DNA from: an uncultured Ruminococcus sp.
GTDB lineage: Bacteria; Bacillota; Clostridia; Oscillospirales; Acutalibacteraceae
Reading direction: 5' to 3'
Assembly: GCA_902761375.1 (NCBI GenBank)
Contig: CACWKB010000013.1
Location: 1 to 38,821 of the forward strand
DNA: 38,821 nucleotides
Part shown: piece by piece, positions 32,687-38,476 of the stretch
Position numbering within the stretch: position 1 is the stretch's first letter
Layout of the letters: every line of letters starts with the position of its first letter
Program-made: the position numbers and the translations under genes
Notes under the pieces: generated by a model
Told to the model about the DNA's origin: nothing
Database searches by the model: none
The model's input: only the letters and a program-made list of their open reading frames with translations

Positions 32687-32721
32687 AAAAGGCTGACCCG
32701 ATACAGGTCAGCCTTTGTTTT
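32687..32721. terminator. Bidirectional terminator
   Basis: AAGGCTGACC and GGTCAGCCTT pair around a 7-base loop. TTTGTTTT follows on the plus strand and CCTTTTCG on the minus strand. It separates the AEC and plsY genes. Confidence 0.8.
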
Positions 32722-33427
32722 ATGCCTTTGTATTGACTTTTTCGGCTTTTTCGGTTTTATCCTTCAGGTGGGCGTTGAGCTCCGCCTGCTTTTTTGAGCT
32801 CAGCGAGAACTTCGACTCCTTGCCCTTTACGAGCTTTTTGAAGTTCGGGAGGTGGCGCAGGATAACCAGCAGCGCCGCGGCGATAGCCATAAGCTCGACC
32901 CAGATATTCTGGGGGCTCAGGCAAGCCAGCGCTATTGGACAGAACAGCGCAGCCGAGCAGGACGCGACCGACATATACTTTCCGATGAACAGCACGAGGA
33001 AGAACACGGCTGTAGCCACGAGCGCCATGCGCCAGTCTACGAACCATATCGTCGAAAAGCCCGCGATGAACGCCTTGCCGCCCTTGAAGCGGTACCATAC
33101 GGGGAAGCAGTGACCGATCATTGCGAACAGACCTGCGAACTGCGCGCCCGTCTGCCAGAGATCAAAGAGCTTCCACATAACGAACGCCGTCGCAAAAACC
33201 GGCAGCGCCGCCTTGAGTATGTCGATGATGAGCACCAGCCAGGTCACAAAGCCGTTGCCGTAAACGCGCTTGAAGTTGGTAAAGCCGGGGTTGTTGCTGC
33301 CGTGCTCGCGGATATCCTGGTGATACACCAGCTTCGAGAGCATGATCGCGCCGTTGAGTCCGCCGAGCAGATATGAGATTATCGCGGCGGGGATCAGTAC
33401 GGCGGGCAAAAATTCGAGCGGTATCAT
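32720..33427 (-). CDS. plsY: Glycerol-3-phosphate acyltransferase PlsY
   Basis: This 235-residue membrane enzyme transfers an acyl group from acyl-phosphate to glycerol-3-phosphate to make lysophosphatidate. Motif 1 ISYLLGGLNGAIMLSK, motif 2 DIREHGSNNPGFTNFKRVYG and motif 3 HCFPVWYRFKGGKAFIAG are present; the last is usually GGKGVAT or GGKAVAT, so Phe in that loop is a variant. The C-terminus extends beyond the usual length into a Lys-rich tail (KDKTEKAEKVNTKA). It overlaps the DegV stop by ATGA, so it is coupled to the fatty-acid kinase genes that generate its acyl-phosphate donor. Confidence 0.9.
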   Translation of the reverse strand: MIPLEFLPAVLIPAAIISYLLGGLNGAIMLSKLVYHQDIREHGSNNPGFTNFKRVYGNGFVTWLVLIIDILKAALPVFATAFVMWKLFDLWQTGAQFAGLFAMIGHCFPVWYRFKGGKAFIAGFSTIWFVDWRMALVATAVFFLVLFIGKYMSVASCSAALFCPIALACLSPQNIWVELMAIAAALLVILRHLPNFKKLVKGKESKFSLSSKKQAELNAHLKDKTEKAEKVNTKA

Positions 33428-34311
33428 ACGGGGAACCTGTCTACGTTCTTGCCCCAGCAGAAAATGCCGATAGCGTCGGCGCCGATGGACGCGCCGATGA
33501 TGGGTCCGATGTAACCGATATAGATGTTTGCGCCGGGGATCTTCTCCTCAACAAGCTCCTTGAGCTCGAGAGCGTCCTCCTCGCAGTCGGCGTGAGCGAT
33601 CAGGATCTCCTGATCCTCGGGGTCGAGGATAGCGTCGACGGTGAGCTGAGCCAGCTCCTCGAGCATCTTCACTCTGCCCTTTACCTTCTTGATCGGCACG
33701 TTGTCGCCCACGGTATTAGAGATGATGATGGGCTTTACTCCGAGCAGGTTTCCGAAATAGGAATCGTCGCCCTGAACTCTGCCCGCAGCCTTGAGCATAT
33801 TGAGGCTGTCGACGGCTACGAACTGGTTGACGTTGTTGCGGACGGCGTTGACCTGATCCGCTATCTCCTCGGCTGAGAGTCCCTGATCTCTGAGCTTAGC
33901 CGCCTTGATAGCGACCTGAGCCTCGCCCATGCAGGCGTTGATGGCGTCGACAACGACGATCTTTCCGTCGGGATAGTCATTGAGCAGCTCCTTGGCGATA
34001 ACGGAGGCGGTGTTGACGGAGCCCGAAAGCTTGCTCGAGCAGCCGACGTATACTACGTCCCAGCCCTCCTCGAGATACTCGCGGAACTTCTTGTCGAAGG
34101 TCTGCGCGGGCACCTGGGTGGTGGTGACGCGGTTGCCGTCGCGGAGGGTATCATACAGATCCTGAGGGCTGTAGAATTCCCAGTCAAGGCTGGCAGGGGT
34201 CTCCTTGCCGTCTCTGACGGTGTTCATCATAAGATAATCGATGCTGTATTTGTCGCGGAGCTCCTTGATCATATCGGAGCAGGAATCGGTTACGACCTTT
34301 ACCTTTCTCAT
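33424..34311 (-). CDS. fakB: DegV-family fatty-acid-binding protein (FakB type)
   Basis: This is a 295-residue DegV-fold protein. VTDSCSDMIKELRDKYSIDY (N-terminus), TTQVPAQTFDKKFREYLEEG, and CSSKLSGSVNTASVIA, whose Ser contacts the fatty-acid carboxyl in known FakB structures, are all present. It presents a fatty acid to the kinase FakA to make acyl-phosphate. The neighbouring FakA gene 17 bp upstream and the overlapping plsY gene support the role. The ATG at 34311 is 9 bases from AAGGAG; a TTG at 34317 is less likely. Confidence 0.85.
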   Translation of the reverse strand: MRKVKVVTDSCSDMIKELRDKYSIDYLMMNTVRDGKETPASLDWEFYSPQDLYDTLRDGNRVTTTQVPAQTFDKKFREYLEEGWDVVYVGCSSKLSGSVNTASVIAKELLNDYPDGKIVVVDAINACMGEAQVAIKAAKLRDQGLSAEEIADQVNAVRNNVNQFVAVDSLNMLKAAGRVQGDDSYFGNLLGVKPIIISNTVGDNVPIKKVKGRVKMLEELAQLTVDAILDPEDQEILIAHADCEEDALELKELVEEKIPGANIYIGYIGPIIGASIGADAIGIFCWGKNVDRFPV

Positions 34312-34328
34312 TGGCAAAATCTCCTTAC

Positions 34329-35975
34329 TTATTCTAAAATTATTATATAATCATAAACGGGCTGTCCGCCGTCTATCATTACCACTTCGGTGCGCCTGTA
34401 CTGACGGCGCAGGGTCTTGCGGATCGCGTCGGCTTCCTCCTTGGGAACGTCCGAGCCGCAGATTACGAGCATTATATCGTAGCGCGACGCCTTGAGCGCC
34501 TCGGCAAGTCCGAGCGCCGCCTGAGTCCTGTCGGGGTCGTCGACGTAGATCCTGTCGTCGACAAAGCCGATGTAATCGTCCTTGACCACCTTTACGCCGT
34601 CGCGTTCGGTGTCGCGCACAGCCTGGGAAACCAAGCCGGTGACGACCCCCGATATGACCTCCTCGGCATAGGCGACGATCTGATCCGCGTCGTTTGAGGA
34701 GGTGTCGAGCATGGATATCGCGGCATAGCCCTCGCCGATGGTCTTGCTGGGAACCACCCTGACCTCCGCCTTGTCATAGAGCGAAGCCGCCTGCTGAGCT
34801 GTGAGGATGATGTTGGAGTTGTTGGGGAACACGAAGATCGTGTCCGCGTTGACCTCGCCGAACGCCTCGATAAGATCCTCTGCGGAGGGATTCATGCTCT
34901 GACCGCCGTCCACCACCGCGTCGCAGCCGAGGGATACGAAGGTTTTCTTTATGCCCTCGCCCGCGGCGACGCTGACAACGCCGAAGGGCTTGTGGGGCTT
35001 TTTCTTTTTGGTCTTGGCGCCGCCCTTGTGGGTCTCGTTGTGCTGGAGGGTCATGTTCTCGATCTTCATGGTGAGGAACTCGCCGTACTTCTGAACATGA
35101 TTGAAGATATCGCCGGGCTTCTTGGTGTGAACGTGCACCTTGACTATGGTGCCCTCGCGGAAGGCTACGACCGAATCGCCGTTGGCGTTCAGCCAGTCGA
35201 TCAGCTCGTTAAGGTCGAAGGCGTCGAGGTCGATCTTGCATTTCTGCAGTCGAAGCAGGAACTCGGTGCAGTAGCCGAATTCCAGCACGCTGTTCTCGGT
35301 GAAGGCGTTGAGATCGACGTTCTTGCGCGAGGAGCCGCCCTCCTGTCCGAGCTCGCCGAGCTCGCCCGTCAGGGTCGCCTTCATGCCCTCGGCGATGCAG
35401 ATGAAGCCCGCGCCGCCGCTGTCGACCACGCCCGCGTCCTTGAGCACCTGAAGCAGATCGGGAGTGCGCTCGAGCGAGCGGTTGAGCTCCCATAGCATAT
35501 CGTCAAGATAGCTCTCGAGCGTGCTCGAGGCGACAAGGCGCGAGTTGGCGTAGACCACGCCGTCCTTGTACACTGTCAGGATGGTGCCCTCAACGGGAAC
35601 CGAAACCGCGCTGTAGCTCTCCTTGATGCCGCTCTCGAGCGCCTTGCCAAAGGCGGCGATATCCGCCTTCTCAACGCCCGAAAGCCCCTTGGCTATTCCG
35701 GCGAAGATGCGCGAGAGGATTACGCCCGAGTTTCCGCGCGCTCCGAGCAGCATGCCCTGAGCGACCTTTGCGGCGGCCTCGCCGAGATGCGCAGTCTCCG
35801 TGCCTGTCGAGGATACGCCCGAGTCGATCGTCAAAAACATATTGTCACCCGTGTCGCCGTCGGGTATCGGGAACACGTTGAGGTCGTTTATAGTCTTTAT
35901 ATTCGCGCGCAGCCGCGCGGCGCCGCCCCTGAGGAGCTCGGCGTACAAAATTCCGTCAATGCTTACAGTACCCAT
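34329..35975 (-). CDS. fakA: Fatty acid kinase catalytic subunit FakA (DAK2/YloV family)
   Basis: This is a 548-residue cytoplasmic kinase. The N-terminal DhaL-like ATP domain (about 1-200) has NDLNVFPIPDGDTGDNMFLT, the Asp cluster that binds two Mg2+, and LLGARGNSGVILSRIFAGIAKG. A middle linker domain and a C-terminal DegV-like domain follow. Together with FakB it phosphorylates exogenous fatty acids for phospholipid synthesis by PlsY. Length fits the family (about 550). AGGAAG precedes the ATG. It is the first gene of the fakA-fakB-plsY operon; no clear promoter was found in the spacer upstream. Confidence 0.9.
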   Translation of the reverse strand: MGTVSIDGILYAELLRGGAARLRANIKTINDLNVFPIPDGDTGDNMFLTIDSGVSSTGTETAHLGEAAAKVAQGMLLGARGNSGVILSRIFAGIAKGLSGVEKADIAAFGKALESGIKESYSAVSVPVEGTILTVYKDGVVYANSRLVASSTLESYLDDMLWELNRSLERTPDLLQVLKDAGVVDSGGAGFICIAEGMKATLTGELGELGQEGGSSRKNVDLNAFTENSVLEFGYCTEFLLRLQKCKIDLDAFDLNELIDWLNANGDSVVAFREGTIVKVHVHTKKPGDIFNHVQKYGEFLTMKIENMTLQHNETHKGGAKTKKKKPHKPFGVVSVAAGEGIKKTFVSLGCDAVVDGGQSMNPSAEDLIEAFGEVNADTIFVFPNNSNIILTAQQAASLYDKAEVRVVPSKTIGEGYAAISMLDTSSNDADQIVAYAEEVISGVVTGLVSQAVRDTERDGVKVVKDDYIGFVDDRIYVDDPDRTQAALGLAEALKASRYDIMLVICGSDVPKEEADAIRKTLRRQYRRTEVVMIDGGQPVYDYIIILE

Positions 35976-37105: not shown

Positions 37106-38113
37106 CTAAACGATTTTTCGAGCCTGCGCGTCAAGCAGCGTGATCAGCCTCTCGGAGGAAAAAGCCTCGTCCGCGGCAAAGGCGAAGGTCAGCTCCTCGC
37201 TGTTTTCGTAGGAGTGCTCGACCTCCTTGGAGTACCTTTGAAACAACGCGGTCAGGTCGGATGTGTTCCGCGCCATGACGCCCAGCACAAGGCAGGCGCA
37301 GACCGCCCTTTTCACCGTGGAGAGCACGTCGTATGAATCCACAGCGTTCAGGTAATAACGGAAAAGCATATACAGAAAAAGCCGCTCCAAGGCTTTGGCG
37401 GTCTCTCCCTCAAAAAGTGGGGTCAAGCCGCTATCGCCCGCCTCCGCGACAAGGCGCGCAAAATCCGCGCTCATGTAGTCGAGGCGCTTGTGAAGCTCAA
37501 ACACAGCCGACAGATCGCCGTCCTCGGGTATATCGAGCGCCGCAGGCTCGCCGCCGTTGAGGACTGCCTGGATCTGAGCGTTGTACTCGAGGCAGTCGCC
37601 GAGCCTGAGCCCAAGCGGTTTGCCGCTGCCGCACAGCAGAAGCGCGGTCTGTTTTCTGGCGCGCAGCAGGGAGCTCAGCAGCTCGTCGTCCCCGTGATAA
37701 CGAGCCTCGAGCAGATCGGAATATGCGTTGTCCTCGGCTAAAATCAGCCTCGCCGCCTCGGGGCAGGCGAACGACAGCGTGTGCTCGCAGAAGCCGTCGT
37801 ATTCCTGGGTTATGCGCGGAAACTCGGCGCAGGTGCGGCAGAGCCTGTCCTCGCCCAGCTCGATGTAAATATCGCAGAGCATATCGGCGTTCCAGAAGGG
37901 ACAGCGGCCGTTTTGAGAGACGAACACCCGGTCGCCGTCGCCGTCGGTCACGGTCAGGGCTCGCAGCTTGTCGCCGAGCGGCGACTGCACGGTGTTGTAA
38001 AACGCCTCGGTCTCGCTGTCCACCACAACGTCCCAGTCCTTGCAGCAGGAGTCGGGGCAGCGCGCGGCTATGCATTTGAATTTTTTGAAGTAGGAAGGGT
38101 AATAATGTCTCAT
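37106..38113 (-). CDS. FliB-family protein (lysine-N-methylase-like, Cys-rich)
   Basis: This is a 335-residue protein. The N-terminal 120 residues carry the FliB-type cysteine pattern, roughly C-x4-C-x3-CC (KCIAARCPDSCCKDWD), then C at about 71 and 80, the RLCRTCAEFPR pair, and two more near 109 and 117, likely ligating a metal or Fe-S cluster. FliB in Salmonella methylates flagellin lysines, but there are no flagellar genes here. The rest is helical. The ATG at 38113 overlaps the TGA of the upstream Nif11-like gene (ATGA), giving translational coupling; an ATG at 38119 is an alternative. No terminator was found after it. Confidence 0.8.
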   Translation of the reverse strand: MRHYYPSYFKKFKCIAARCPDSCCKDWDVVVDSETEAFYNTVQSPLGDKLRALTVTDGDGDRVFVSQNGRCPFWNADMLCDIYIELGEDRLCRTCAEFPRITQEYDGFCEHTLSFACPEAARLILAEDNAYSDLLEARYHGDDELLSSLLRARKQTALLLCGSGKPLGLRLGDCLEYNAQIQAVLNGGEPAALDIPEDGDLSAVFELHKRLDYMSADFARLVAEAGDSGLTPLFEGETAKALERLFLYMLFRYYLNAVDSYDVLSTVKRAVCACLVLGVMARNTSDLTALFQRYSKEVEHSYENSEELTFAFAADEAFSSERLITLLDAQARKIV

Positions 38114-38388
38114 GTCCATATCAGTTGTGAAAAAAATTGCTCATACGCGTCGTCCCAGCCGTCGATGGCGTTGACTCCGCCTCCGTTTACGCTGCGCAGC
38201 ATGGCGTCGCCGGCGGTCATGCCGACCGTGAACAGCTCGCCTGCGGTCACGCTGTAGCCGAGGCTGCGGCAAAGCGCGCAGAAATCCTCCACGGGCTCTT
38301 CGCTGTCGCGCGTGGCAAGCAGCCGTGATTTGAGTTTTTCGTCCTGTTTAGCGGCAAATAACAGCCGCTCCAATTCAAGCTCGATCAT
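38110..38388 (-). CDS. Nif11-like leader peptide (candidate RiPP precursor)
   Basis: This 92-residue protein resembles Nif11-type leader peptides. The helical leader ERLLFAAKQDEKLKSRLLAT, then DFCALCRSLGYSVTAGELF, ends in SVNGGG at about 66-71, where a double-glycine protease would cut. The remaining 21 residues (VNAIDGWDDAYEQFF then SQLIWT) would be the core. They are acidic and aromatic, with two Trp and no Lys or Cys. AAAAGGTGA precedes the ATG. It is coupled by ATGA to the FliB-family gene. I see no transporter, protease or cyclase in the window, so RiPP maturation is inferred from the leader alone. Confidence 0.7.
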   Translation of the reverse strand: MIELELERLLFAAKQDEKLKSRLLATRDSEEPVEDFCALCRSLGYSVTAGELFTVGMTAGDAMLRSVNGGGVNAIDGWDDAYEQFFSQLIWT

Positions 38389-38399
38389 ATTATCACCTT

Positions 38400-38476
38400 T
38401 TAGGGGTTAGGGGTTAGGGGTTAGGGATTAGGGATTAGGGATTAGGGATTAGGGATTAGGGGTTAGGGGTTAGGGG
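38400..38476. repeat. Telomere-like heptamer array, 11 units of TTAGGG(G/A)
   Basis: Eleven contiguous 7-mers run from 38400 to 38476. The seventh base is G in units 1-3, A in units 4-8 and G in units 9-11, a symmetrical pattern. The array ends 11 bp before the Nif11-like start codon, so on the minus strand it would form a CCCTAA-rich 5' UTR or lie in the promoter. The plus strand has runs of three or four G and could form quadruplexes. Confidence 0.95.

Follow-up and report, generated by a model that had tools for sequence, protein, structure and literature searches.

A gene for a Nif11-domain small protein beside a gene of a predicted non-flagellar FliB branch in relatives of Ruminococcus bromii

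To our knowledge, FliB has been described only as acting on flagellin, as a proposed Fe-S protein methyltransferase. In Salmonella FliB a CX4CX3CC motif holds a [4Fe-4S] cluster, according to the sections of the source used here (PMC8598068). For N11P precursors, the corresponding sections of a second source describe sequence similarity that stops at a Gly-Gly motif, beyond which the core is of low complexity and rich in Cys, Gly and Ser (PMC2887384). Among open-licence papers we found none that joins Nif11 with FliB, or Nif11 with Ruminococcus bromii.

The locus described here lies at the end of a 38.8-kb contig of an uncultured Ruminococcus (genome of 1.59 Mb, 79% complete), which was analysed in its full length of 38,821 nucleotides and is referred to as the window. 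A preliminary description of this DNA had reported a gene for a 92-aa Nif11-like protein overlapping that of a FliB-family protein, and had proposed that the FliB homologue modifies the Nif11-like peptide. Both open reading frames were found at the coordinates claimed, on the minus strand, and the features of the locus are as follows.

38110..38388, minus strand: Nif11-domain small protein, 92 aa (MIELELERLL...LRSVNGGGVNAIDGWDDAYEQFFSQLIWT); Pfam Nif11 match; 68 of the 120 genus genomes carry the family
37106..38113, minus strand: non-flagellar FliB-like protein, a predicted [4Fe-4S]/SAM protein methyltransferase, 335 aa; assigned from NF038110, M3, the profile start and the tree
38110..38113, minus strand: ATGA stop/start overlap of the Nif11-like and FliB-like genes, read from the sequence
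38042..38074, minus strand: CX4CX3CC cysteine motif, codons 16-26 of the 337-aa ORF; C16, C21, C25 and C26 invariant in 36 aligned sequences
38176..38184, minus strand: GGG, residues 69-71, within the conserved block DxKLRSVNGGG, from the alignment
38113..38175, minus strand: C-terminal tail of the Nif11-like protein, the 21 residues that follow GGG; conserved in the genus, with 0.60 mean pairwise identity

Gene calls were made with a simple longest-ORF script, and the longest ORF of the FliB-like gene starts at 38119, encodes 337 aa and overlaps the Nif11-like gene by 10 nt. The genus FliB profile match begins at the second ATG, 38113, and the corresponding M3 is nearly invariant in the alignment; this second ATG is our preferred candidate start over 38119. 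With it, the two genes share the ATGA at the Nif11-like stop that had been claimed for them. The first ATG comes from a Trp codon that is conserved at the C-terminal end of the Nif11-like protein, and it is probably not the true start.

Several other features of the window were recorded. Eleven copies of the 7-mer TTAGGGG (97% match) occupy positions 38400-38476, immediately upstream of the ribosome-binding region of the Nif11-like gene, and a search of 292 loci with TTAGGGNTTAGGGNTTAGGG matched three copies of this same place and no other. The aquaporin of the window matched TIGR00861 at 177 bits. Genes for YloV/DAK2, DegV and PlsY are consecutive on the minus strand at 32720-35975 and perhaps form a lipid-related set, and near the window start there are two differing 79-bp tandem repeats, at 103-320 and 411-569.

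The FliB-like protein matched NF038110 with 187.6 bits against an equivalog cut-off of 85, the match being best over the N-terminal half. Ten cysteines lie within its first 120 residues, in line with the approximately ten N-terminal cysteines first noticed, and eight are invariant in the alignment of 36 sequences, including the four of CX4CX3CC. Flagellar genes had been described as absent; a search for flagellin gave no match in the window's own 79%-complete genome nor in any of the 120 genus genomes. In the class, flagellin was matched in 13 of the 59 FliB-positive genomes and 46 were without it. A tree of 42 FliB sequences was computed from the best FliB of 30 of these 59 genomes (those for which loci were returned), one FliB from a Pantoea plasmid and 11 sequences of the genus set. 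In this tree the flagellar label of the Pantoea row was assigned without testing for flagellin, and the 11 rows of the genus set were called flagellin-less on grounds of kinship; labels and lists for both tree and co-occurrence analyses were transcribed by hand from the result tables. A 100/100 branch splits an 8-row flagellar clade, made up of the Pantoea sequence and seven from genomes with a flagellin match, from a 34-row clade. The latter contains the window protein, the remaining genus-set rows, 18 sequences from class genomes in which flagellin was not matched and five from flagellin-positive genomes. By eye, the sequences on the 34-row side carry, close to the C terminus, a block resembling YSKEVEHSYEN that is absent from the 8-row side. 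The structure predicted for the FliB-like protein had a mean pLDDT of 90.9; Foldseek with this model returned no PDB match at E<=0.001, and phmmer in the same fold comparison returned nothing below E 0.68. FliB relatives were also seen on eight plasmid records, from Salmonella, Pantoea, Erwinia and Selenomonas.

The firmer finding from these data concerns the name: "flagellin methylase" is wrong for the protein encoded here. We read it as a member of a putative non-flagellar branch of the FliB family that would have a substrate other than flagellin, and homology and motif point to a predicted Fe-S protein methyltransferase. Since this separate branch is common in flagellin-less Clostridia, relatives of R. 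bromii included, automatic annotation as "flagellin lysine-N-methylase" is misleading for many genomes, and a further substrate may await discovery.

The small protein encoded in front of it had been described as a Nif11-like leader followed, after GGG, by a short acidic tail that contains Trp. A profile search did return Pfam Nif11 above cut-off (26.1 versus 23.8 bits), and the RiPP-precursor model TIGR03798 scored 17.2 bits, below its cut-off of 32.3. The tail, VNAIDGWDDAYEQFFSQLIWT, is acidic, contains Trp and lacks Lys, and the leader has three Lys, all as first noted; the tail also has no Cys and few Ser/Thr. Mean pairwise identity across 69 genus loci was 0.88 for residues 61-71, 0.60 for residues 72-92 and 0.51 for residues 1-60, and it reached 0.86 for residues 72-92 among the 13 FliB-adjacent loci. 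Alignment of the tails, from which a variable core would be expected for a RiPP, hence returned conserved and not hypervariable residues within the genus. The predicted structure (mean pLDDT 72.9) is helical at residues 81-91 and falls below 50 at residues 56-79.

It is highly improbable, in our estimation, that this protein is a RiPP precursor which is cleaved at GGG and tailored by FliB, with the tail as product. Such a role would fit the presence of a Nif11 domain and the alignment of the family's VNGG with the VAGG that ends the solved Nif11-domain protein 9zn4_A; when the Gly-Gly motif was compared with the ELSDEELEAVAGG-like N11P motif, as given in the sections used of PMC2887384, the acidic LSDEEL pattern was absent. 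It is at odds with the sub-cut-off TIGR03798 score and with the composition and conservation of the tail. Nor does the presence of C39 peptidases follow that of the gene: there was no match in the window's own 79%-complete genome, and across the 120 genus genomes they were matched in 14 of 68 carriers of the Nif11-like gene and in 17 of 52 non-carriers. The division into leader and core was accordingly rejected, with a qualification. At 14 loci outside the genus, the identities were 0.56 for residues 61-71, 0.33 for residues 72-92 and 0.35 for residues 1-60, so the tail is kept no better than the leader beyond the genus, and the precursor role is best called disfavoured. When neighbouring proteins were scanned singly, eight of ten matched mostly housekeeping families and two matched none. 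For the outside loci, 91 neighbours were listed at 13 of the 14 and 86 of them were scanned against Pfam; a radical SAM domain was found in four of the 86, and the other 24 of the 25 commonest families (of 178) each occurred in three or fewer. We consider that the Nif11-like protein, which is conserved and free-standing, probably works as an intact small protein. A relative with 38.5% identity is encoded at 2436-2705 of an unverified and unannotated "Bacteriophage sp." record from human faeces (L292, MT836210.1).

Named relatives include R. bromii, uncultured Ruminococcus and uncultured Clostridia, and FliB directly follows the Nif11-like gene in R. bromii ATCC 27255, 5AMG and YE282. Among the 120 genus genomes the Nif11-like gene was found in 68, FliB in 97 and both in 55; of these 55, 13 have the two genes adjacent (within about 135 nt) and three have them 1.5-3.8 kb apart. 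As many of these genomes are incomplete MAGs, absences are soft. Counted by sequence, 17 of 61 distinct FliB sequences adjoin a Nif11-like gene. The pair recurs in genomes where flagellin is not matched. Under a first-ATG rule 14 of the 17 adjacent rows overlap; measured from the profile start in the 13 adjacent genomes, four pairs overlap by 1-4 nt, seven are separated by 2-21 nt and two by 86 and about 131 nt. Three points go beyond the preliminary description: the pair occupies part of the genus, its two genes are mostly placed end to end and do not overlap, and the tail sequence is conserved among genus members.

On the 61-row FliB tree adjacency required five changes, against a mean of 14.9 when shuffled, which indicates that the pair is inherited and not random. 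One part of the genus preserves the gene order, whereas outside that part it is not preserved; random order, which had been named as grounds for dismissing the pair, was therefore found in part. Next to the 83 Nif11 loci (69 from the genus and 14 from outside), the following gene was FliB at 13, all of them among the genus loci, aquaporin-like at 11 and antiporter-like at nine, and rpsT lay upstream at many; the aquaporin-like, antiporter-like and rpsT neighbours were named from their sequences. Across 291 genomes of the class, the Nif11-like family was found in 15, FliB in 59 and both in five including the window's own, and in the other four the two genes are on different contigs. In the 61-row tree the rows with adjacency are early branches of the genus clade, with a Nif11-less clade nested among them; in a 33-row tree the Nif11-less clade is the first to split off (89/61 on the other side). 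The two trees, each midpoint-rooted, disagree, and the pair may either be ancestral to the genus or have arisen in its Nif11-carrying part.

The preliminary description went further and suggested that FliB acts on the peptide. Its expectation that the pair recurs in relatives was borne out; the proposed action on the peptide was not. Each gene also occurs alone and FliB has other upstream neighbours. FliB of any score was matched in 55 of 68 Nif11 carriers and in 42 of 52 non-carriers (p=1.0), leaving 13 of the 68 carriers without any FliB match and 22 of the 68 without a strong-scoring one. With cuts chosen after the table had been seen, co-occurrence gave p=0.015 for FliB at E<1e-99 and p=7e-14 at E<1e-119, where 46 of 48 genomes carry Nif11; an earlier count on 60 genomes had given p=0.76 and 0.20. 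A YEQF tail type accompanies the strongest-FliB genomes at 38 of 41 loci. A 10-row FliB clade comes from genomes without Nif11, which is likewise missing from 21 genomes whose FliB scores fall in the range of that clade, and Nif11 presence amounts to one change on the 33-row FliB tree. Because of this single change, and because the profile derives mostly from relatives of the Nif11-carrying type, the co-occurrence p-values were not counted; common descent would produce both the 46 of 48 and the 38 of 41.

Methylation of the Nif11-like protein by FliB, at leader lysines such as K14 or K20, with a regulatory, non-RiPP role and in trans where the genes lie apart, is in our judgement unlikely. It would be in keeping with the clustered and partly conserved adjacency, with the 46 of 48 strongest-FliB genomes that carry Nif11, and with K14 and K20, both of which are Lys at 13 of 13 adjacent loci; the co-occurrence is not independent evidence, however, given the single change on the FliB tree, and the association with any FliB is nil. 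With the three loci that have FliB 1.5-3.8 kb away left out, Lys was found at position 20 in 37 of 53 non-adjacent loci (p=0.028) and at position 14 in 39 of 53 (p=0.055). Within the same tail type, non-adjacent loci keep K20 at 25 of 25 and K14 at 21 of 25, and Lys retention was rejected as a sign of methylation for want of a clear excess. Lys63 speaks against methylation as well: Met in the window protein, it is Lys at 12 of 13 adjacent loci, at all 53 of the non-adjacent loci in the genus and at 0 of 14 outside the genus. Alternatively, the Nif11-like protein might serve FliB as an adaptor, chaperone or regulator that helps it to find or reach its substrate, for which the close spacing of the genes, the conserved acidic tail with its modelled helix, and the same 46 of 48 genomes would speak. 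We regard such a partnership as improbable in view of the FliB clade without Nif11, the 22 Nif11 carriers without strong-scoring FliB, the separate contigs in the four class genomes and the adjacent pairs, most of which do not overlap from the profile start.

FliB was also found close behind other genes. A small TSCPD-domain (PF12637) gene, named from the Pfam match of the L047 protein, precedes it at eight loci in seven distinct places, and forms a second recurrent pair of a small gene with FliB (L036, L037/L278, L038, L047, L054, L274 and L285). Named from their sequences, an amidohydrolase-like gene precedes it at three loci and a peroxiredoxin-like gene at one place seen twice. FliB also overlaps a FolB/K-like fusion gene, likewise named from sequence, in two genomes of another family (L267 and L268).

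The Nif11-like and FliB genes are not obligate partners. On balance we hold it probable, by a modest measure, that they form a two-gene unit in part of the R. bromii group, in which an intact Nif11-domain protein and a non-flagellar FliB with another substrate are connected through expression. The first gene would encode the conserved free-standing protein, probably working intact, and the second a protein methyltransferase of the non-flagellar branch, predicted from homology to be [4Fe-4S]-dependent and to use SAM. Its substrate may be some other cell protein, as the independent occurrence of the two genes suggests. Shared expression is suggested by gene spacing: FliB would draw on the promoter of the gene in front and, in the window, also on the ribosomes terminating there, and FliB relatives seemingly exploit other front genes in the same manner. 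Counting against this two-gene unit are the 46 of 48 genomes and the 38 of 41 YEQF loci, which a functional link in trans would equally give, the adjacency clustered on the FliB tree, which is long-lived for a chance neighbour, and the activity of a non-flagellar FliB member, of which no report was found in the open-licence literature. It is rather unlikely that in the R. bromii group a non-flagellar FliB took the Nif11-domain protein as substrate or obligate partner, which would make a new protein-modification pair that is neither flagellar nor antibiotic. In the search for a substrate of the FliB-like enzyme, the Nif11-like neighbour offers a concrete candidate to begin with, and its case suggests that some Gly-Gly-bearing Nif11 proteins are not RiPP precursors.

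Compared with the closest described systems, the cysteine cluster of the FliB-like protein is similar to that of the PF03692 CxxCxxCC family, which is named in the sections used of PMC8598068, whereas PF03692 was not among the Pfam matches of the window up to E 10, where filters can drop weak matches. With N11P (TIGR03798), as far as the sections used of PMC2887384 describe it, the window protein shares a Nif11 domain and, around residue 70, a motif of the Gly-Gly type. In contrast to N11P as presented there, similarity in the window family runs past Gly-Gly within the genus, the tail lacks Cys, no recurrent maturase or exporter was found beside the family among the neighbours scanned, and the score lies below the TIGR03798 cut-off. 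The FliB-like protein differs from Salmonella FliB, within what the same sections of PMC8598068 cover, in belonging to a genus without a flagellin match and to a separate clade, in its YSKEVEHSYEN-like block near the C terminus and in matching the FliB model (NF038110) mainly over the N-terminal half; the two proteins have in common the CX4CX3CC motif and eight conserved cysteines.
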